42,318 nt of DNA. Source: Acidobacteriota bacterium. GTDB lineage: Bacteria > Acidobacteriota > Terriglobia > Acidiferrales > UBA7541. The stretch covers positions 1 to 42,318 of the forward strand of contig QHYS01000171.1 of assembly GCA_003223325.1 (NCBI GenBank), read 5' to 3'. The position numbers and the translations under genes were made by a program. Shown piece by piece: positions 185 through 14,228 of the stretch (position 1 is its first letter; each line of letters opens with the position of its first letter). Below the pieces are notes generated by a model that saw nothing but the letters and a program-made list of their open reading frames with translations, had not been told where the DNA came from and made no database searches.

Positions 185-544
185 CCGCTTGCCTGAGAAG
201 GCCTAAAGATCGTGGCTCGTCGCACCATACCTTCAGCGCAAAATTGCTATCTTCCCGGTTGTGAAGATTGAAGAGGAATTGGTCTTTCCCGGCGAAACTG
301 TGTGGGACTTGCCTCACGAAGAATACCAGCGGCCGTTGACTACGCCCGCCAGAAGACTAGAATCACGGCCACAAGCGAACTTCAGTCCTGAGCGGGATCT
401 ACCTCGTTTCACTCGTGCGGGAAGATCCCCACGATTGATAAATTATATGACCTCACAGGCGGACGGCGCACCATCTGGGCTGCCACAGAGAAGCGCCGCG
501 TGTCGCCCGGGAAATGAACTGGATGATCGGCCATCCGCTATCGG

Positions 545-602: not shown

Positions 603-2915
603 ATGAGTGCCCCAAAGGAAACTCTCAGCGATCTCGCGGACGAGCTTCGCCGCCTGCGCGACACCGTAGCCGGACTGAAACGACAGCGCGAGGAATACCG
701 GCGCGGCGAGCTCCGAGTAGCGCGCGATGATGCCGACCTGGATCGCTTTTTTACCCTATCGATCGACATGCTGTGCATCGCGGGATATGACGGCTACTTC
801 AAACGGCTGAATCCTTCGTGGGAGCACGTGCTGGGGTACAGCGTCGACGAACTGACCTCCTTGCCTTTCCTCGAATTCGTACATCCCGACGACCGGGCCG
901 CGACCACTGCTGAGTTTCAGGGACTGGTCACTGGCCACAGTACGATTTCCTTCGAAAACAGATATCGCGCCAAGAACGGCATATACCGATGGATGTTGTG
1001 GAATGCGACGCCCTTTCCCGAACAACGATTGATCTATGCCTCCGCGCGCGACATCACCGAACGAAAATATGCCGAAGAGACTCTGAACCGTTTCTTTACG
1101 CTGTCTCCCGATATGTTGAGCATCGCGGGCTACGACGGGTATCGCAAGGTCGTGAATCCCGCCTGGGAGCGCATCCTGGGCTTTAGTGCGGCGGAGTTGA
1201 AAGCGGCTCCTTTTGTCGAATTTATCCACCCTGACGACCGCGCCTCGGCGATGGCCCAACACCAGAAAATGCTTGCGGACGGATGCATGATTTCGTTTGA
1301 AGCACGCTATCGCACCAAGGATCGTTCTTACCGATGGATGCAGTGGAACGCGACGCCCTTCCCGGAACAGCGATTAATCTATGCCGCCGGGCGAGACATT
1401 ACCGAGCGCAAAGAGGCGGAAAAGAAGATTCAGAGGCTCAAGGAAGAGGCCGATGCGGCCAATCGAGCCAAGAGCGAATTCCTTGCCCGAATGAGCCATG
1501 AGATCCGGACACCACTGAACGTGGTCATCGGAACCGGCGATTTGCTGGAGCGAACCCCATTAAACACCGAGCAGCGACAATACGTCCGCGTTTTCCAGAA
1601 CGCTGCAAACAACCTGCTGGCCGTGATTAACGACATTCTCGATCTTGCCAAAGTCGAATCCGGGCATCTTGCTCTGGAAGAAAGGGATTTCGACCTGGCT
1701 GAACTGATGGACTCGGTTGCCGAAGTCATGTCGGTGCGGGCCCAGCAAAAGGGCATTAGCCTCATCTGCAACATCGCGCCGCAAACCCCGCCGTGGGTAA
1801 AGGGCGACCCCGAGCGGCTACGCCAGGTGCTGCTCAATTTGATTGGTAATGCCATCAAGTTTACCGAGAAAGGGCAGGTATTGTTGCACGCGGAACCCGA
1901 TAGAGGAAACTCCGCGGCAGGTGCCTTTCAATTCTCGGTGGCCGACAGCGGTATCGGCATTCCGCCGGAGAAGCTCGATGCAATCTTTGAAGCCTTCACA
2001 CAAGCCGACGCTTCCATCACACGGGCATACGGCGGCACAGGCTTAGGCTTGGCCATTGCTAAGCGTCTGGTTGAACTGATGCACGGACGCATTTGGGCGG
2101 AAAGCAGCCCAGGCATAGGTGCCACGTTCTATTTCACTGCGCAGTTCGGCATCGCGCCCGCTGAAGAAGCCGTATCGCCGGAGAGCCAGGTTAGGCCGCT
2201 CGCTATGGCACCAGATTTCTTGGGTGCTCTACGGATACTGATCGTGGATGATTCCGAGGAGAACCGGTTTCTGATCCGCGAGTACCTCAAGGATCTTGGA
2301 TGCCAATTGGATTTCGCGGAAAACGGACGGATAGCAGTCGAAAAGAGTTGCACGAACCCCTACGACTTGGTGCTGATGGACCTTCGGATGCCCGTGATGG
2401 ACGGATACGATGCCACGCGACTCATCCGCCGATGGGAGGCGGAACAGGGGCGCATGCTCACGCCCATTATCGCGCTGACTGCCAGTGCGCTAGACGCCGA
2501 ACTTCAGAAAGCCATCGATGCCGGTTGCACGGCATCTTTGCGCAAGCCTATCCGGTTGCTGACGCTACTCGAAGCGATCCGGAAGCATGCGCTTCGGCCC
2601 GCTTCCAGCGCTGCGGCACCGCCCGAAAAGGTTGTGGTACCTGCCGATGCCCGTTTGCGCGCGGTAATCCCAGCCTATTTGGATAATCGGCGCGAAGACG
2701 TCCGCGCCATGCTGGCAGCTCTGGAAACCTTGGATTACAAGACCATTGGTGAGCTGGGCCACAAGATGAGCGGAACCGGCGGGAGCTACGGCTTCCCGCA
2801 GATCACAGAAATTGGCGCGGCAATTCAACAGGCTGCCAAAGAACAGAATACCCGCGAGATTCGATCGTGCGTAGCGGAACTCTCCAGATATCTCCACCAT
2901 GTGGAAGTGGTCTGA
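603..2915 (+). CDS. PAS-PAS hybrid histidine kinase / response regulator with Hpt domain
   Basis: A predicted cytoplasmic hybrid sensor kinase of 770 aa that should autophosphorylate on His and pass phosphate along an internal relay. Order: two very similar PAS/PAC domains (about 46-155 and 161-270, both ending RDITERK), HisKA with SHEIRTPLN (H299), HATPase_c with the N box LIGNAIKF and G boxes DSGIGIP and GGTGLGLA (about 400-516), a receiver with D593 in DLVLMDLRMP (about 543-660), and an Hpt-like tail with H720 in GHKMSGTGG. No membrane segment is seen, so it probably senses an internal cue. The ATG at 603 is chosen because AGGAG lies 7 bases upstream and no domain precedes it; the frame is open back to a GTG at 261. 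It converges, 9 bp apart, on the response regulator-ATPase gene, a likely partner by context only. Confidence 0.9.
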   Translation: MSAPKETLSDLADELRRLRDTVAGLKRQREEYRRGELRVARDDADLDRFFTLSIDMLCIAGYDGYFKRLNPSWEHVLGYSVDELTSLPFLEFVHPDDRAATTAEFQGLVTGHSTISFENRYRAKNGIYRWMLWNATPFPEQRLIYASARDITERKYAEETLNRFFTLSPDMLSIAGYDGYRKVVNPAWERILGFSAAELKAAPFVEFIHPDDRASAMAQHQKMLADGCMISFEARYRTKDRSYRWMQWNATPFPEQRLIYAAGRDITERKEAEKKIQRLKEEADAANRAKSEFLARMSHEIRTPLNVVIGTGDLLERTPLNTEQRQYVRVFQNAANNLLAVINDILDLAKVESGHLALEERDFDLAELMDSVAEVMSVRAQQKGISLICNIAPQTPPWVKGDPERLRQVLLNLIGNAIKFTEKGQVLLHAEPDRGNSAAGAFQFSVADSGIGIPPEKLDAIFEAFTQADASITRAYGGTGLGLAIAKRLVELMHGRIWAESSPGIGATFYFTAQFGIAPAEEAVSPESQVRPLAMAPDFLGALRILIVDDSEENRFLIREYLKDLGCQLDFAENGRIAVEKSCTNPYDLVLMDLRMPVMDGYDATRLIRRWEAEQGRMLTPIIALTASALDAELQKAIDAGCTASLRKPIRLLTLLEAIRKHALRPASSAAAPPEKVVVPADARLRAVIPAYLDNRREDVRAMLAALETLDYKTIGELGHKMSGTGGSYGFPQITEIGAAIQQAAKEQNTREIRSCVAELSRYLHHVEVV

Positions 2916-4522: not shown

Positions 4523-4558
4523 GACTAGCCGTTTGACCGTCTGAGGTTGGCCCACCAC

Positions 4559-7285
4559 ATGATCGGCCAGACCATCTCGCATTACCAAGTCGTCGAAAAA
4601 CTTGGCGGCGGCGGGATGGGTATTGTCTACAAGGCGCTGGACACACGCCTCCAGCGATTTGTCGCTCTCAAGTTCCTGCCCCCTGAACTCTGCCGCGATA
4701 ACCAGGCATTGGCCCGCTTCCAACGGGAGGCACGGGCGGCATCGGCTCTCAATCATCCGAACATCTGCACCATCTACGACATCAGCGACGAGGATGGACA
4801 GGCCTTCATTGCGATGGAGTACTTGGAAGGAACCACGCTGAAGCACCTGATCCGCGGATCGCCGATCGATAACGATCGCTTGCTTACGTTCGCAATTGAC
4901 ATTGCGGATGCCTTGGATGCGGCGCACACCGAAGGCATCGTGCATCGGGATATCAAACCCGCAAACATCTTTGCGACCAAACGAGGACACGCCAAGATTC
5001 TCGACTTCGGCCTCGCCAAGCTGACGATGGTCGCAGCCGGCGTGACGGGTACAAGCCTCACCGTTGGCAACGTTCCAGGAAGCGATGAGTTCCTGACTAG
5101 TCCGGGCACTTCGGTAGGTACGGTTGCCTACATGTCGCCGGAACAAGCCAAAGGAAAGGAACTGGACGCCCGCACGGATCTGTTTTCATTTGGAGCCGTG
5201 CTCTACGAGATGGCTACGGGCACGCTTCCGTTTCGCGGCGATACATCCGCCACGGTCTTCGACGCCATCCTGAACCGTCCCCCGCTCTGGCCCTTGCGCC
5301 TCAATCCAGCCTTGCCGCCGAAACTGGAACAAATCATCGGCAAAGCACTGGAAAAGGATCGTGACCTGCGGTACCAGGTCGCGTCGGAAATTCGCGCCGA
5401 CCTGAAGCGTCTCAAGCGTGAAACTGACTCCAGCGGTAGTGCGAAGTCGGTCTCGGCATTCTCAGAGGAAGAGGTTCTTCCACGGCAGCAGTTTGCGCCT
5501 CCTCCAGCCCAGGTGGTGGATAGCTCCTCCGTAATTGCCGCAGTCAAGCAGCACAAATGGGTGGCCGTCGGAATTGGTCTGGTGCTGACAATGATTGTGT
5601 CGATCGCGGGCTACGGCCTCTACTCGATGTTATTCTCAGGGGGTCAGACTCATTTCCAGACCTTCAGCATCACACAGGTTACAACCTCTGGAAAAGCGGC
5701 CCTCACGGCCCTATCGCCCGACGCTCGCTACGTCCTGTCAGTCTTGAACGACAAGGGCCTGCAAAGCTTGTGGCTGCGCAACATTCCCACAAGCAGTGAT
5801 ACCCAAGTAATCCCGCCCGCACCCGCTTCCTACCGGAGCCTTGCGTTTTCACCGGATGGAAATTATCTGTACTTCATTAAAGCCGCGGATGCGACGAATA
5901 CACACTTCGATTTATATAGGGCGCCGGAATTGGGTGGTGTTCCCCAAACCGTCGTGCGCGGGATCGACAGCGACGTCACCTTCTCTCCGGACCAGCACCG
6001 TCTCGCTTTCGCTCGAGCCAATGCTCCGGAAGCTGGCAAGTACACTCTGATCGCAGCGAATTTGGATGGGACTGACGAGCGGGTACTCCACGTGGACGCA
6101 CCAGCCTCCGATGTTCCTTCGTCGGTTGCCTGGTCGCCGGACGCCAAGGAGATCGGCTACAGACTGTCCAGACCCGACGGAGTTCTGGGTGGGCTCGCGA
6201 TCGTGAATGTCGGGAGCGGGAAAGTCAGCACTTACGCGACGTTCAGCGACGTGCTCACGGGTGACTTCAAATGGATGCCTGACGGCAATGGGCTTCTCGC
6301 GCTGTATTTTCAGAAAGGGCCGGATTACTTCCAACGGGCGCAGATCGGGTTGGTTCCGCCCAGGAGCAGCCGTATCAACCCTATCACGCGGGATACGAGC
6401 AGCTACGCTACATTGACGCTTTCGGCAGATGGAAAAACTCTGGCGACCGTCCAGACCAAGACATCGCAGAACCTGTACTTACAACGCGCCGCTGATAAAG
6501 CTGCCGGGGAGCCGAGCGCGGTACTGCCTCAGGGCCAACTCGTTAACTGGTTTGCCTGGACAGCGGATGGAAATCTGATTTTCACAGACTACTCACGCAT
6601 TTTGCGGACAGGGGTCGGCCAGGAGGCGCCAACAAGCCTTCTGGGTGACTCCAATGCGGCTATCGTGGAACTCTCAGGCTGTGGTACCCGCTTGCTCGTG
6701 TTTTCCTGGGCATTTCATGGCGGCACGAACTCGACCAACGTCTGGCGCGCAAACGCAGACGGTACTAATCCCGCCAAGTTGACCGACGGGAAGAACGATC
6801 GCTCCCCCGTGTGTTCGGCGGACGGGAAATGGACGTACTACTGGAACCAGGAATTGCAGCAGCTCTGGCGTGCGGCGTTGGACGGCCCAGGCAAGCCAGA
6901 AGTAGTGTCCAGGGGCGTGGCTCCTCGGACGCTCCCAGCCGAAAAGTTGCTGAGTGCCTCTCCCGACGGCCCGGAGTACAAGATAGCGCTGCTGGACTTG
7001 GCCGCGCCGACTGCGCCTCCGCGCCTCATGGATGCGGATGAACGAATTTCGAGCGGCGGTTTGGCCTTCGCGCCGGACAGCAAGGCGGTGGCTTATCCCA
7101 TCCGGGAGAGCGGGGTCGACAACCTCTGGGCGCAGCCGCTCGATGGAGCATCGGGCCGGCGGATTACGTCTTTCAACGCGGAACAGATTTCCACATTCGC
7201 ATGGTCGCCGGACGGCAAGAGCCTAGCCATATTGCGTGGCCATACCGACTCGGACGTGGTCCTGATTCGCGATACGTCACGATAG
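4559..7285 (+). CDS. membrane Ser/Thr protein kinase with C-terminal TolB-like beta-propeller
   Basis: A Hanks-type kinase of 908 aa. It has the glycine loop GGGGMG (16-21), K38 in VALKF, the catalytic loop HRDIKPAN (D131), DFG (D149) and the activation-segment end YMSPEQ. A single transmembrane helix lies at about 334-358. The remaining 550 residues carry repeated FSPDG, WSPD and FAPDSK blades of the WD40-like/TolB propeller class, probably periplasmic and possibly ligand-sensing. This architecture is common and expanded in Acidobacteriota. The ATG at 4559 is chosen because MIGQTISHY is the family's usual start; an upstream in-frame TTG (4547) sits on the only GAGG ribosome-binding site. The kinase substrate is unknown. 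Confidence 0.92.
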
Positions 7286-7531: not shown

Positions 7532-8887
7532 ATGTTTTCGTCTTCATGGTCGATCGTTGGCGTATCCAAGGATCGGTTTGCTGGCCGGATGGTGGGCAAG
7601 CACATTCCTCACATCGCTATCCTGATAGTGGTTGCGATACTTATGGCGGGGAGCGTCCAGGCCCAAGAGGCTAGTCTGGCAGATGCCGACAAGCAGACAA
7701 TTGAGCTGCTGGTGCGGCGGATCGATCAGCTTGAGGCGCGCGTCGCCCAGCTCGAAGCCGGCAAGTCGCAGCCTTCTGGCGCCAAGACTGACCCGGCGCC
7801 GACACCGCAGGCTGAGCCCGCTACAGTCGGAAAAGAGCCACCAACAGAACCTACTGAATCACAGCGATTGGACGTGGGCACGACGCTGTTGAACATCAGG
7901 GGGTTCGGCGACATAACATTTCACGGCGATACTGCTAAAGGTGGACACTTCGATCCTGGTATCGGTACGCTCGCCGGTAATACGACGTCGTTTAGCCTCG
8001 GGCAGCTGGACCTGTTCGTTACCTCCGACATCTCCGACAAATTCAAGTTCCTGAGCGAGATCGTGTTCGAAGCGGGACTGGACAACTCTTTCGGCGTGGA
8101 TGTCGAGCGTTACCTTCTCCAATATTCCCCGAACGATTATTTCAACGTGTCGGTGGGCAGGTACCACACGGCACTCGGTTACTACAACACTGCCTATCAC
8201 CACAGCACTTGGTTGCAGACAACCACCGGCCGGCCCTTCTTGTTCGCGTTCGAGGACAGCGGTGGCATTCTACCTATTCACAACGTGGGAGTTTCCGTGA
8301 CTGGATTGATCCCTTCGGGAGATTTGGGTTTACACTATGTGGCGGAGGTGGGTAACGGTCGCGCGTCGTCCTCTCCGAATTTGGAAGCCGTACAGAATCG
8401 CGTGGACGAAAACAACGGAAAATCCTTCAACCTGGCGCTGTATGTCCGACCGTCCGCGGTCCGCGGGTTGCAAACGGGGTTCTCCGTCTACCATGACCAC
8501 CTGACGCCGATCGGGTTACCGAACATCAGCGAGAACATTTTTGCGGTGCACGCCGTGTTCATCCGTCCGAGCTTCGAATGGCTCAACGAAACAATGCTGA
8601 TCCGCCATGCCCTAAACGGGACTTCGCGCGCATTTAACACGCCGGGGTTCTATACACAGTTGTCGAAACGCTTTGGTTCATACCGACCTTACTTTCGGTA
8701 TCAGTATGTGAATGCATCCGATGTGGAACCAGTCTTCCCGCAAGTTGGCCTGATGCGTGGGCCGTCCTTCGGCTTGCGCTACGATCCCAGTGAGTCGGTG
8801 ACGCTGAAACTGCAGTACGACTATACGGACATGCGGCACCAAACGCCGATCAACGGTGTCGCCACGCAGCTTGGGTTTACGTTCTAG
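7532..8887 (+). CDS. outer-membrane porin-like beta-barrel protein with N-terminal coiled coil
   Basis: 451 aa. After a long basic n-region, a hydrophobic stretch IAILIVVAILMAG and a VQA-QE cleavage site (about residues 44-45) form a signal peptide. A short heptad segment, ELLVRRIDQLEARVAQLEAG, follows, then a Pro-rich linker and about 330 residues of alternating polar/aromatic strands ending in F-T-F, as outer-membrane barrels do. The coiled coil before the barrel recalls phosphate-selective and other trimeric porins, but no specific family is certain. Its stop codon abuts the ATG of the next gene, a phosphate-binding-like protein, so the two are almost certainly cotranscribed. That suggests uptake of phosphate or another oxyanion, by context only. 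Confidence 0.75.
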   Translation: MFSSSWSIVGVSKDRFAGRMVGKHIPHIAILIVVAILMAGSVQAQEASLADADKQTIELLVRRIDQLEARVAQLEAGKSQPSGAKTDPAPTPQAEPATVGKEPPTEPTESQRLDVGTTLLNIRGFGDITFHGDTAKGGHFDPGIGTLAGNTTSFSLGQLDLFVTSDISDKFKFLSEIVFEAGLDNSFGVDVERYLLQYSPNDYFNVSVGRYHTALGYYNTAYHHSTWLQTTTGRPFLFAFEDSGGILPIHNVGVSVTGLIPSGDLGLHYVAEVGNGRASSSPNLEAVQNRVDENNGKSFNLALYVRPSAVRGLQTGFSVYHDHLTPIGLPNISENIFAVHAVFIRPSFEWLNETMLIRHALNGTSRAFNTPGFYTQLSKRFGSYRPYFRYQYVNASDVEPVFPQVGLMRGPSFGLRYDPSESVTLKLQYDYTDMRHQTPINGVATQLGFTF

Positions 8888-9418
8888 ATGGGCACTCCAA
8901 TGGTGCAACTGGCAAATATCCTGCTGTTCGTCATCATTGCCCTGGCCCCTAGGAGCGTCGAGTCCAACGTGGCGGTCCTCGGATCCCCTGCGGCCGAGCC
9001 GGCTCTGGCGATCATCGTGAATCAGTCCAATCCAGTGGAAAATTTCTCCTACGAGGACCTGCGCAAGATCTTCCTCGGCGAGAGGAGCCACTGGCCGAAC
9101 GGACGGAGGATCACGCTCGTGATGCTAGATGCTTCGCAGCCAGAGCGAAAGGTCGTTCTGCGCGAGATCTATGGAATGAGCGAAAAAGACTTCAATAACC
9201 ATTTCATTCAGGGGGTTTTCAGCGGGGAGGTGTTTGTTTCACCGAAAACCCTGGCGAACTCCGCCGATGTAATTAAGTTTGTGTTCAATGTGCCGGGAGC
9301 AATCGGCTATGTGCTTGCCAGCGAGGTGGATTCTTCGGTGAAAGTTCTCCGCGTGGACGGCCGCCTCCCGGATGACAAAGACTATCGGTTCCGGCTCGCC
9401 GCGCGTCCGGGCAATTAA
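8888..9418 (+). CDS. small PstS-like (PBP superfamily) substrate-binding protein
   Basis: 176 aa with an N-terminal hydrophobic segment (about 8-20), probably a signal peptide, then one periplasmic-binding lobe. Motifs typical of the short PBP-like family are visible: FSYEDLRKIFLGERSHWPNG, ERKVVLREIYGMSEKDF, and the C-terminal VPGAIGYVLASEV. Full-length PstS is nearly twice as long and this version lacks the second lobe. No permease or ATPase gene is adjacent; it sits directly after the porin gene with no intergenic base. In other bacteria such proteins sit near sensor kinases or porins and may act in ligand sensing rather than transport. The 9419-9586 gap after it shows no clear terminator. 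Confidence 0.8.
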   Translation: MGTPMVQLANILLFVIIALAPRSVESNVAVLGSPAAEPALAIIVNQSNPVENFSYEDLRKIFLGERSHWPNGRRITLVMLDASQPERKVVLREIYGMSEKDFNNHFIQGVFSGEVFVSPKTLANSADVIKFVFNVPGAIGYVLASEVDSSVKVLRVDGRLPDDKDYRFRLAARPGN

Positions 9419-9586: not shown

Positions 9587-12058
9587 TCAATCTTTGCGGG
9601 ATCCAGCGAAAGCCATGGCCTCAACTAATTCGTGAACCCGAGCGTCGGTGCAGACCTCATAGTAAGCACGCTGTCCCTCGGGCCCAATACGGCCATCGGA
9701 AAGCAATTGCCGCACGTGACCGCGGCGCAGGAGGACCGGCTCGACCGCGTCGCCGACCGGCACGTGGCCCAGAAAAAACGTGGTGAGTTCCTGTCCCCAC
9801 GGCATTTCGCACTCCACCTCAAACGAGTGTAGAGCGATCTCCTCCGACAATTTGGCAAAGCCTTCGTCGTTTAGTTCCACACCATTCAGATTGAAACGGA
9901 TCAGGAACTCGTCCGCTTCATCCTCCTGGGCTCCTTCCACGCCGGGCTGGAAAACAAACAGCCGAAAAATCGACGAACGGTCCCCCAGCAATCGCCGCGC
10001 CACTTTGGAACAGCTGGACAGGCGATCGGAAAGGTTCAGGGCACGTGAAATCATAATGCGCGAATCGCTATCCACCCAATACGTAGGCGCCGAGCCTTGA
10101 AACGCAATTCCCACGCCTAATTCCAAACGAGGCAAATCGCTCACGTCGGGGCGGTCGTTGTAAGCAGCGGCAATCGCGAGTATCTGCCGGGCGAGGGTGC
10201 AGGCTTTGGAAACCGCACGCTGGTGCAAGCGGTTCGATTCTGTCTCGAAGATGGCCAAGACCATGGCGTCGCCCTCGATAAAGACTTTGGCAGCCCCGTA
10301 ACGGTCCAGAATGCGTTTGACCGGCTCATAGAAGTTTAGGCTGAAGAGGGTAGCAGGATTTAAGCCGCGGGCCAGCAGGTCCTGAGTGATGCGAGTCGAA
10401 CCGCGAACGTCGGCTTTCACGACCGCATGATTGATCACGTGATCATGAGCGGGAGGCGTTTCCGAGGCCAGCAGGAATTCATACAAGCTGTTATTCATCC
10501 GCGAAATCTCGCGCGTTCGCTCGCTGCGAACGAGCTGGATTCGTTCCATGGCCGCAGCCAGCCCTTCGTAGTTCCGCAAGTCGCGGCGCAAGCGCATGAA
10601 ATCCTCGGCGAAATGCAAAGCCACCGCTCGCGCCTCCTCCCGCGGGTAACGCCGCAGTTTTTTGGCCAAGCTCTCGATGCGTTCCATGGAGAAGCGCCGT
10701 GCTGGAAATTGGTTCAGAATTTGAGCGACCCGCCCGAGCTCCTCACGGGAAACTAGCGCCTTCTTGAGCTGCTGTAAGTGAATGGGCGGGCAATAATCGT
10801 GATAGATATTGCGCAATTCATAGCTGGCCAGCACGTGAATCAGCAAATCTCGTTTTTCCAGCCGAGCCACCCAGTCATCGAGCCGGCGTGCGCGGGCTGC
10901 ACCAGATTCGTGATTTCCCTTCCAATCGATGTCGAACAGGCGATGCGCGTTTTCCGGCTCATTTAGGTAGTCGCCCAGAATTCGATCATATTCCTGGCCG
11001 ATGAAGTCCGCCCTATTCTTGGCGGCCTCAATGAGCGGCGCCAATTGATCGAGCTTGGCTTGCGACTCCTTCATACGGAGCTCGACTTTCGATAGCTCGC
11101 GCTGCACCCGGGAACGATCCGCGCCGATTCCAACTCGCGCGAGCATCCCGCCGCCTCTCTCCAACTTTCGCGAGAGCGCGTTTCGCTGTTCCTCGAGAGC
11201 TGCGAGCCCCTCCCGGGCGGACACCGCTGACTGAAGCAAGTCCCCATGATTTCGCGACGCCTTAGCAATTTCGTCGGCGCGACTGCTTGTCATAACCGTT
11301 TCGCGGAGCAGGTCAAACATCAAACCATCGAACGTCTCGAAGCGATCTTGGTCTTTCTGATAATTGCCGAGTAAAACGTATTGCTCCAGAAAGAGCAAGT
11401 CGTCGCGCCCGCCTTCGACGAAGGCGATGCGGTCGGCGAGCATTTCATACGCTCCTTTCTGCTCGTCGCCGAATAGAGCCTTGCGCCAGCGCCCCAGATT
11501 GTTTTCCTCGTAGTCGAGCAGAATCTGATAGACGTGCTGAGCCACTTGGCGAAAGATACCGCGCCGGTTGGCTTGCAATTCTGCCAGGCGCGCCTTCATG
11601 ATGTGCGCTTGCTCGGAGCGCTCGAAGTATTCGCCTCGACTGCGGATCCACTCCTTGGCTTCGAGAAGCAAACTCGCAAACTGGGCTCCAATCTCCTGGG
11701 TCAAGAATTTCAGCAAGGCTGCGCGGAACAGCAGGTCCAGCTCGATTTTCTTTTCGTACTTAGCGCGAGTGAGGGAGGCCTGCATCAATTCGAGGGTTTG
11801 GCGTTTCCAGGCGCCCGTTTCCGGGCCTTTCGGAGGTCTCGATCCCTTGCGAACCGAGTAGGTGAGGTTCGCCACCTGTCGAATGAACTCGAGCAGATAG
11901 ACGCGCGTATGTTCGGTCCAGATCGGGCTCAGGTAGACGTCATGATGGATATTGTCGACGCCAACCGTAAGCGTCGCCAGCGGAAGCTCCGCCGCGTAGG
12001 TCTTCAGCTCGACGCGGGCAAAATTGCCCGTGAGCGTCGTAGGCCCTTCGGGAGACAT
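9587..12058 (-). CDS. large coiled-coil protein with C-terminal class III nucleotide cyclase-like domain
   Basis: 823 aa. Residues 1 to about 540 are helical and charged, with coiled-coil stretches (for example around EEQRNALSRKLERGGG), and match no family I recognise. From about 540 the sequence follows the class III adenylate/guanylate cyclase homology domain: VVKADVRGST with metal ligand D550, FIEGDAMVLAIF with D597, LELGVGIAFQGSAP, and the catalytic pair N675 and R679 in ALNLSDRLSS. All four expected catalytic positions are present, so activity is plausible, but the surrounding sequence is divergent. No transmembrane segment is seen. It follows tsaE by 126 bp at the end of the long minus-strand run. 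Alternatives are an inactive nucleotide-binding scaffold or a c-di-NMP-like enzyme. Confidence 0.7.
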   Translation of the reverse strand: MSPEGPTTLTGNFARVELKTYAAELPLATLTVGVDNIHHDVYLSPIWTEHTRVYLLEFIRQVANLTYSVRKGSRPPKGPETGAWKRQTLELMQASLTRAKYEKKIELDLLFRAALLKFLTQEIGAQFASLLLEAKEWIRSRGEYFERSEQAHIMKARLAELQANRRGIFRQVAQHVYQILLDYEENNLGRWRKALFGDEQKGAYEMLADRIAFVEGGRDDLLFLEQYVLLGNYQKDQDRFETFDGLMFDLLRETVMTSSRADEIAKASRNHGDLLQSAVSAREGLAALEEQRNALSRKLERGGGMLARVGIGADRSRVQRELSKVELRMKESQAKLDQLAPLIEAAKNRADFIGQEYDRILGDYLNEPENAHRLFDIDWKGNHESGAARARRLDDWVARLEKRDLLIHVLASYELRNIYHDYCPPIHLQQLKKALVSREELGRVAQILNQFPARRFSMERIESLAKKLRRYPREEARAVALHFAEDFMRLRRDLRNYEGLAAAMERIQLVRSERTREISRMNNSLYEFLLASETPPAHDHVINHAVVKADVRGSTRITQDLLARGLNPATLFSLNFYEPVKRILDRYGAAKVFIEGDAMVLAIFETESNRLHQRAVSKACTLARQILAIAAAYNDRPDVSDLPRLELGVGIAFQGSAPTYWVDSDSRIMISRALNLSDRLSSCSKVARRLLGDRSSIFRLFVFQPGVEGAQEDEADEFLIRFNLNGVELNDEGFAKLSEEIALHSFEVECEMPWGQELTTFFLGHVPVGDAVEPVLLRRGHVRQLLSDGRIGPEGQRAYYEVCTDARVHELVEAMAFAGSRKD

Positions 12059-12184: not shown

Positions 12185-12619
12185 TCAGTTCTTGGGAAGG
12201 GTGATCGTGATTCGACGCGTATCCGCTTCGACGTGCTCGAGGTGGATGGCGACCTGTGGCCAGTCGGTACGCAGCACGAAGCGCTCCGCCCATTCAATAA
12301 TGACCACCGCTGGCTCGACAAACGCATCCTCCAGAGCAAGCGACTCGAGATCGTGGAAACCCTCGACGCGGTAAAGGTCTACATGGAAGACCCTGACGTG
12401 TTTGCGAAACTCATGTACGAGTGTAAAGGTTGGACTGGTCACCTCTTCTTCCCGCGCAACGCCCAGTCCGCTGATGATTCCTTTGGTGATCGTGGTCTTG
12501 CCGCTGCCTAGCTCGCCGGATAGAAGCACAAGCACCGGCGGACGAAGACGTTGGGCCAGTTGGCGACCGATTTCCATGGTCGCTTCGGGAGAAGAGGAGA
12601 CGACCTCAGTGGACGGCAT
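12185..12619 (-). CDS. tsaE: tRNA threonylcarbamoyladenosine biosynthesis ATPase TsaE
   Basis: A P-loop ATPase of 144 aa needed with TsaB and TsaD for t6A at position 37 of ANN-decoding tRNAs. Visible motifs: Walker A GELGSGKTT (K41), the switch-like VTSPTFTLVHEF, HVDLYR and the family signature IIEWAERF. The length matches E. coli TsaE (about 150). The start at 12619 (MPSTEV) is picked from family alignment and overlaps the end of nnr by 14 bp. An ATG at 12646 has a GGAGG only 3 bases away, and another ATG lies at 12664. Adjacency of nnr and tsaE is widespread in bacteria. Confidence 0.92.
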   Translation of the reverse strand: MPSTEVVSSSPEATMEIGRQLAQRLRPPVLVLLSGELGSGKTTITKGIISGLGVAREEEVTSPTFTLVHEFRKHVRVFHVDLYRVEGFHDLESLALEDAFVEPAVVIIEWAERFVLRTDWPQVAIHLEHVEADTRRITITLPKN

Positions 12620-14228
12620 CGTGCCATTGAGCCAGGAGCCGTGCATATGCCTCCGGTAGCGCATCGATCACATCGGAAGCCACCAGGGGAGCCTGGCCGA
12701 CTCGCTCCGCGGCCACGTCGCCGGCGAGACCATGTAAGTAAACGCCAAGGCCGAGTACGCACTCCCAGTTTTTGGTGCCAAATTCCGCAGTCAGACCGGC
12801 CAGCATCCCGGTGAGAACGTCGCCCGTCCCGCCAGTCGCCATTCCCGCATTACCCGTGGTGTTAACGTAGGCGCGATCATCGGGTGTCGCCAGAATGGTA
12901 TGAAATCCCTTCAAAATGACAAAAGCCTGCCATCGCTTTGCCGCCTCCAGAGCAAGTTCCGGGCGCCGCGCCTGAACGTCGCGTGTGGTCACATCAAGGA
13001 GCCGCGCCATTTCTCCAGGATGGGGCGTCAGCGCCAGCAGCTCTGGTTTTCTGGTGCGGAGTTCGGCCGCACGCCCGGCAAAAGCGTTTAGGCCATCGGC
13101 GTCGAGTACGACCGGAAGAGATAATTTCTGCAGCATGGCGCGAATGAATTGCTGTGTTTCGGGGTTTGTGGAAAGCCCAGGACCCATCGCGACCACGGAC
13201 TTATCCTGGGCTATGCGCGCGAAGGGTTCGTAATCGAGATTGCGGAGACTGGCCGTGCCGTCGTCTGTGGCGAGCAGAGGCGCCGTCATCATCTCGGGCA
13301 TCCCAGCGGCAACGATCGGCAGCACGTCCGCCGGCGTAGCCACCGTGACCAGTCCCGCTCCCACGCGAAGCGCGGCACGTCCGCCCAAGACGGCAGCACC
13401 CGATTTGCCCACCGAGCCTGCCACAATCAGCGCGTGACCAAAACTGCCCTTGTGGGCGTCGGCCTTGCGCGTCAGAGGGAGACTGCGGAATTCGCCCGGC
13501 TCCAACCAGTGAAGCTTCAGGGCTGGATCATCGTCCAGCAGTTTGCGCGGCGTGCCAATATCGCGCACGAAAAGTTTGCCCACGCAATCGGCGCCAGGCG
13601 ACAGCAGTTGGCCAACTTTGGGTGCAGTAAACGTTACGGTCGCATCAGCAAGAATGATCGGCCCTCCAAAGTCTTCCGTTCCCGAAGGCAGGCCCGAAGG
13701 CATATCGACCGCGACCACGAAGCGCCGGCAACCACGCACGCACACATTTTGCTTTCGCCTCCAGGCGTTGGTCTCCTCGATGACAGATGCCAGCAAGCCT
13801 TCTACGGGGCCTTTAACCCCTGTGCCCAGTAGCGCGTCAACAATCAACTCCGCTTCGTCGAGAATTTCGCGTGTCGCCATCCACTCTGTTGTCGACGTCA
13901 GCACGCGCAGTTCCCCGCCTCCCTCCTGCCAACGCCGTAAATTCACTGCCGCGTCGCCCCGAACCGCGGATGATTCCGCAAAGAGAAAGACCTGCGGCCG
14001 TGCACCTCGTTCGCGCAAACGTCGCGCCACAACCAATCCATCGCCTCCATTGTTGCCTTTGCCGCAGAGAACCAGAATGCTGCGCGCGGAAAGATCGGGA
14101 AAGGTGTGAGATAAATAATCGGCCACAGCCGCCCCGGCATTCTCCATGAGTTGCAGACTGGGTATGCCATAACGATCGGTGGTCAGCCGGTCAGCCTCAC
14201 GCATCTGATCTGCGGTCAAAACTTTCAT
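12606..14228 (-). CDS. nnr: bifunctional NAD(P)H-hydrate epimerase / ADP-dependent NAD(P)H-hydrate dehydratase
   Basis: 540 aa; repairs hydrated NADH and NADPH in the cytoplasm. The N-terminal YjeF_N epimerase half (about 1-215) has GKGNNGGDGLVVARRL and the VAVDMPSG segment. The C-terminal ribokinase-like dehydratase (about 235-525) has MGPGLSTN, VLDADGLNAFAG, LTPHPGEMARLL and the GGTGDVLTGMLAGL signature. Length matches the fused NnrE-NnrD of E. coli (515). It starts at MKVLTADQMREAD, typical of the family. An upstream gap of 142 bp (14229-14370) separates it from the permease gene and shows nothing notable. Confidence 0.95.
   Translation of the reverse strand: MKVLTADQMREADRLTTDRYGIPSLQLMENAGAAVADYLSHTFPDLSARSILVLCGKGNNGGDGLVVARRLRERGARPQVFLFAESSAVRGDAAVNLRRWQEGGGELRVLTSTTEWMATREILDEAELIVDALLGTGVKGPVEGLLASVIEETNAWRRKQNVCVRGCRRFVVAVDMPSGLPSGTEDFGGPIILADATVTFTAPKVGQLLSPGADCVGKLFVRDIGTPRKLLDDDPALKLHWLEPGEFRSLPLTRKADAHKGSFGHALIVAGSVGKSGAAVLGGRAALRVGAGLVTVATPADVLPIVAAGMPEMMTAPLLATDDGTASLRNLDYEPFARIAQDKSVVAMGPGLSTNPETQQFIRAMLQKLSLPVVLDADGLNAFAGRAAELRTRKPELLALTPHPGEMARLLDVTTRDVQARRPELALEAAKRWQAFVILKGFHTILATPDDRAYVNTTGNAGMATGGTGDVLTGMLAGLTAEFGTKNWECVLGLGVYLHGLAGDVAAERVGQAPLVASDVIDALPEAYARLLAQWHDAVH

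Follow-up and report, generated by a model that had tools for sequence, protein, structure and literature searches.

The window analysed here, a stretch of 42,318 nucleotides of DNA from a soil acidobacterium, encodes an 823-residue protein that is likely to be an active class III-type cyclase belonging to a distinct, previously uncatalogued subfamily. Judged from its sequence, the protein probably combines a non-canonical base specificity with an unrecognised regulatory domain. No description of this subfamily was found in the literature, coverage of which was incomplete.

The limits and length of the reading frame are exactly those given by a first-pass annotation, which had not named the strand; the gene lies on the minus strand and starts with an ATG at 12058. 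Homologues sharing 33–93% identity have full-length reading frames that are open, without stops. Comparison with the nearest homologue (93% identical) gave 39/22/125 differences at the three codon positions and a dN/dS of about 0.034/0.244 (about 0.14), which indicates purifying selection. The reading frame is a real gene under purifying selection. The protein sequence contains no hydrophobic segment of sufficient length to span a membrane, and a cytosolic location is part of the explanation preferred below. The features discussed are collected in Table 1.

Table 1. Features of the cyclase-like gene and its upstream neighbours. Residue counts are from a 90-row alignment of Acidiferrales, Terriglobales and Desulfobacterota sequences, in which the window protein occurs twice alongside some near-duplicates; canonical neighbours are the corresponding residues in 26 canonical class III domains.
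Feature	Residues	Positions in window	Strand	Remarks
Whole reading frame (divergent class III cyclase, helical N-terminus)	1–823	9587..12058	-	823 aa
Helical N-terminal region	1–530	10469..12058	-	Outside known families
Conserved N-terminal motifs	35–44, 228–239, 421–435		-	DNIHxDVxLS, VLLGN..D.DR, DYCPPxHLQQLKKAL
Coiled-coil hairpin	258–365	10964..11287	-	About 110 residues; largely missing from homologues in Terriglobales and Desulfobacterota
Long helix toward cyclase domain	473–505	10544..10642	-	Candidate signal-transmitting helix
Class III cyclase-fold domain (predicted)	541–823	9590..10438	-	Profile–profile comparison, AlphaFold2 model, structural matches
Extended β-rich C-terminal part of cyclase domain	700–802		-	
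D550, first metal-binding Asp (predicted)	550	10409..10411	-	90/90; pairs with canonical metal Asp
D597, second metal-binding Asp (predicted), EGDA	597	10268..10270	-	90/90; pairs with canonical metal Asp
N675, transition-state Asn (predicted)	675	10034..10036	-	90/90
R679, transition-state Arg (predicted)	679	10022..10024	-	89/90; N-x3-R spacing
F593, D597−4	593	10280..10282	-	90/90 Phe; canonical neighbours Lys 25/26
I668, N675−7	668	10055..10057	-	89/90 Ile, 1 Val; canonical neighbours Thr 15, Asp 9, Ser 2
K548, D550−2	548	10415..10417	-	90/90 Lys; canonical neighbours Phe 24/26
tsaE, upstream neighbour		12185..12664	-	Same orientation; conserved neighbour
nnr (NAD(P)HX epimerase/dehydratase), upstream neighbour		12606..14228	-	Same orientation; conserved neighbour

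Homology and predicted fold of the two parts

Searches of the whole protein against Pfam, NCBIfam and PADLOC gave no usable match. The sole NCBIfam match, a phospholipid N-methyltransferase, reached 14.8 bits where the cut-off is 250 and is attributed to chance. PF00211 did not reach its gathering score with the 823-residue protein and was not listed for any of 26 diverse members of its family. Homology to class III cyclases did emerge from a profile–profile comparison of residues 535–823 with 26 canonical class III domains, which were taken with PF00211 from related genomes and then aligned (probability 96.9, E 1.4e-10, 138 columns). In the alignment D550, the GDA motif around D597 and N675/R679 fall on the equivalent canonical residues. 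In the same comparison the N-terminus reached a probability of 0.2. As controls, seven unrelated neighbour families did not exceed 0.7, and the highest value among 20 column-shuffled cyclase alignments was 6.1. Canonical cyclases were also recovered by HMMER with the profile of the cyclase-like family. A sequence-profile search of solved structures with the cyclase domain found CyaC at E 0.7–0.9, which is not significant on its own.

The first-pass annotation had staked its cyclase claim beforehand on structure prediction, and a cyclase fold is present in the AlphaFold2 model (pLDDT 85.7) at about residues 520–810. The best structural matches to the model, over residues 511–810, are class III cyclases, with the adenylyl cyclase domain 1cjk_A at the top (Z 16.9, 3.5 Å, 180 residues) and the guanylyl cyclase domain 6ao9 at Z 16.6 (2.7 Å, 171 residues). 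Prediction and homology together support a class III cyclase-like C-terminal domain, as the annotation had proposed.

The N-terminus was described in that annotation as helical, unrecognised and containing a large coiled-coil region. The first two attributes stand: the N-terminal model, built with 64 sequences, is confident and helical (pLDDT 89.5, pTM 0.83), and neither Pfam nor NCBIfam gave a family match. The third needs revision, as the coiled coil is limited to the hairpin at about residues 258–365, the remainder being a compact helical domain. Since this hairpin is mostly missing in the Terriglobales and Desulfobacterota homologues, the essential N-terminal part would be the helical remainder together with helix 473–505. 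When solved structures were searched by sequence profile, the full-length and the N-terminal alignment each returned generic coiled-coil proteins only, and the best Foldseek match of the N-terminal model to solved structures, at E 0.17, was not significant. VIA-align 2 gave Z scores of 9–11, largely confined to the hairpin at 243–348 of that model, and likewise no significant match; such likeness reflects a common arrangement and is not convincing as a relationship. On these model-based comparisons the N-terminus has no convincing structural match, which does not in itself prove a new fold.

Catalytic and base-reading positions

The metal and transition-state residues named in the first-pass annotation were all found at the positions it gave, and the orthologues show no loss of them apart from one exception at R679. 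This exception is a Desulfobacterota homologue (L132, genome G488) that has Ile in place of the Arg, in the motif INEADILS; it could be an inactive member or an asymmetric partner.

In canonical class III enzymes the base is read by a pair of residues located four positions before the second metal Asp (D2−4) and seven before the transition-state Asn (N−7), which are Lys with Asp or Thr in adenylyl cyclases and Glu with Cys in guanylyl cyclases. Neither signature is present here, where these positions are occupied by F593 and I668. This assignment of the base-reading positions is based on the spacing of the catalytic residues, which is the same as in the guanylyl cyclase CaRhGC, in which D457 and D501 are the metal ligands and E497 (D2−4), C566 (N−7), N573 and R577 (N+4) complete the set (PMC5967339). 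A HMMER alignment to CyaC (1wc0) permits one-residue insertions on either side of EGDA, so that V592 instead of F593 could face the base. Whichever does, the residue is neither Lys nor Glu.

Compared with the class III cyclases recognised by PF00211, such as CyaC (1wc1), Rv1625c (7yz9) and CaRhGC (6sir), the protein has the same predicted fold, metal Asp pair and Asn/Arg spacing, but it differs in F593/I668, in having Lys for Phe at the position D1−2, counted from the first metal Asp, in an extended β-rich C-terminus, and in falling below Pfam detection. The DUF2652 proteins are likewise cytosolic relatives of class III enzymes that the standard models do not cover, but they are single-domain proteins of about 250 aa; in the mycobacterial ones the base-reading pair retains Lys, together with Glu, and the Asn is replaced by Ile (PMC4886424). 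No Pfam match to DUF2652 was found for the 823-residue protein.

Distribution and gene neighbours

Among the 61 genomes near that of the window, 39 carry the cyclase-like gene, nearly always in single copy; split matches in these genomes are separate contigs or adjoining pieces. Nearly all members of the window's own family have it, and it is absent from the four genomes of one genus (g12) that were searched. The named relatives are mostly metagenome-assembled genomes of Acidiferrales and other Terriglobia, plus Desulfobacterales. An even sample of the phylum added five genomes, all from one putative Terriglobales family (f11), whose proteins do not have most of the coiled-coil segment, and a 247-genome sample of the phylum of the Desulfobacterales match contained the gene in five. 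Conservation of the protein thus spans two phyla. Its N- and C-terminal parts occur together, partial matches being mostly contig ends or frame-broken copies, and a search of plasmids did not find the gene. The acidobacterial form also appears, at 52% identity, in records titled Bacillota and Betaproteobacteria (L095, L099), names that look wrong.

In the window the gene stands at the end of a run, as noted in the first-pass annotation, that lies entirely on the minus strand: pilN/pilO, secretin, M24 peptidase, accB, accC, thiE, two amino-acid permeases, nnr, tsaE and the cyclase-like gene. At the 85 loci for which upstream sequence was available, tsaE is found within five upstream genes in 43 and nnr in 53. 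An immediately adjacent tsaE always has the same orientation, and the gap is usually about 50–150 bp; two negative gaps probably result from over-extended starts. A HAMP-SpoIIE phosphatase belongs to the same-strand nnr/tsaE/cyclase run at 49 loci (for example L040:1875-3914) and was not found within the part of the window examined. An SDR-like protein, identified from its N-terminal sequence only, is often part of the run as well. Terriglobales and Desulfobacterota loci have different neighbours, and no conserved linked receptor or effector gene was seen among the annotated ones. The linkage to nnr and tsaE is conserved housekeeping synteny and gives no direct clue to a signal or partner. No promoter-like site was found, and terminator-like sites were not above chance.

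Two other arrangements may be recorded. At the Desulfobacterota locus L143:6216-10546 the cyclase is flanked by a Ser/Thr kinase before it and a metallophosphoesterase after it; all three share one orientation and could form a set for phosphorylation and cyclic-nucleotide turnover. On the plus strand of the window, positions 7532-9418 encode a 451-residue protein without Pfam or NCBIfam match, immediately followed by a 176-residue protein weakly resembling a PstS/PBP domain (TIGR02136, E 5.5e-8). This pair adjoins a 912-residue Ser/Thr kinase with WD40-like repeats (4547-7285).

Alternative explanations and proposed mechanism

The first-pass annotation had left a choice between a new second-messenger synthase and a nucleotide-gated scaffold. 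In the latter case the cyclase domain would be catalytically dead and bind NTP as a switch, with the helical part as its output, which would agree with hydrophobic residues at both base-reading positions, with the large conserved N-terminus and with the Ile found for Arg679 in one homologue. A dead domain is nevertheless hard to reconcile with the near-complete invariance of the metal Asp pair, the Asn and the Arg (Table 1), and the catalytic domain shows the stronger conservation (in L122, for instance, 41% identity versus 24% for the N-terminus), which is the opposite of what is expected for a decayed enzyme. We consider a scaffold unlikely, and of the two readings the synthase is favoured on sequence grounds because members from both phyla keep the residues for metal binding and for the transition state. 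Such a synthase could still be an ordinary adenylyl or guanylyl cyclase of divergent sequence that makes cAMP or cGMP. Its fold and catalytic residues are typical of that class, and variants of Ma1120 at Asp157 (Cys, Gly, Thr, His) keep making cAMP (PMC4215837), so that purine turnover does not depend on the base-reading pair and altered positions do not reveal substrate preference. What speaks against it is that both base-reading positions and the D1−2 position are replaced, invariantly or nearly so, across two phyla, whereas the canonical relatives keep Lys (25/26) and Thr, Asp or Ser (26/26). An ordinary purine cyclase is thus a serious possibility but not the leading expectation; it forms the cAMP/cGMP part of the active-cyclase reading, with which it overlaps.

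The altered pocket also brings to mind the pyrimidine cyclases of Pycsar anti-phage systems. PycC proteins share the class III-type catalytic residues and have a non-purine base pocket. They, too, do without the purine-reading pair and read pyrimidines with different residues near the metal Asp pair: F100, R142 and Q144 around D102 and D146 in EaPycC, and F60, K104 and F109 around D62 and D106 in AnPycC (PMC11224242). The pocket residues found here do not match the ones described in BcPycC, EaPycC and AnPycC, the protein has a 500-residue N-terminus, and PADLOC, PycC models included, gave no match at E 1. The annotated neighbours are nnr, tsaE, the SpoIIE-type phosphatase and permeases; an effector of the PycTM or PycTIR type was not seen among them or among the conserved neighbour families, some neighbours being unannotated. 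A single-copy gene that is widespread in its own family and was not found on plasmids is moreover unlike a mobile defence gene. A Pycsar-type role is therefore very improbable.

In the preferred explanation, an active cytosolic cyclase of a separate subfamily, the C-terminal domain would form the usual head-to-tail homodimer. D550 and D597 would hold two metal ions that bind the nucleoside triphosphate, and N675 and R679 from the partner chain could then close it to the 3′,5′-cyclic monophosphate. The base would be recognised by a non-canonical pocket comprising K548, F593, E595 and I668, so that a product other than cAMP or cGMP is conceivable. The helical N-terminal domain may sense a cue, and helix 473–505, which would join it to the catalytic domain, may relay control of the activity.

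The cyclic-nucleotide inventory of the source genome, a 98% complete draft, gives this explanation a setting. No match to PF00211, PF01295 (class I) or PF01928 (CYTH) was obtained, which makes the 823-residue protein the only cyclase candidate found in the draft, although absence from a draft assembly, judged on these three models, falls short of proof. The genome has seven matches to cNMP-binding domains; domains of the CRP/FNR type need not bind cyclic nucleotides. The same combination, a cyclase-like protein and cNMP-binding-domain proteins without a Pfam-recognised class III cyclase, occurs in several acidobacterial genomes, among them G006, G007, G008 and G037. A more specific proposal can be offered tentatively, with doubt outweighing confidence: a chromosomal, non-defence cyclase with a main product other than cAMP or cGMP (cCMP, cUMP or another), a helical sensor of new fold, and a role as the main source of cyclic nucleotide where canonical cyclases are lacking. 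Because Pfam recognises no class III cyclase in such acidobacterial genomes, standard annotation would miss a possible cyclic-nucleotide source there. If the altered pocket does change the product, this would be a case of a non-canonical cyclic nucleotide, pyrimidine or otherwise, that is made outside phage defence.
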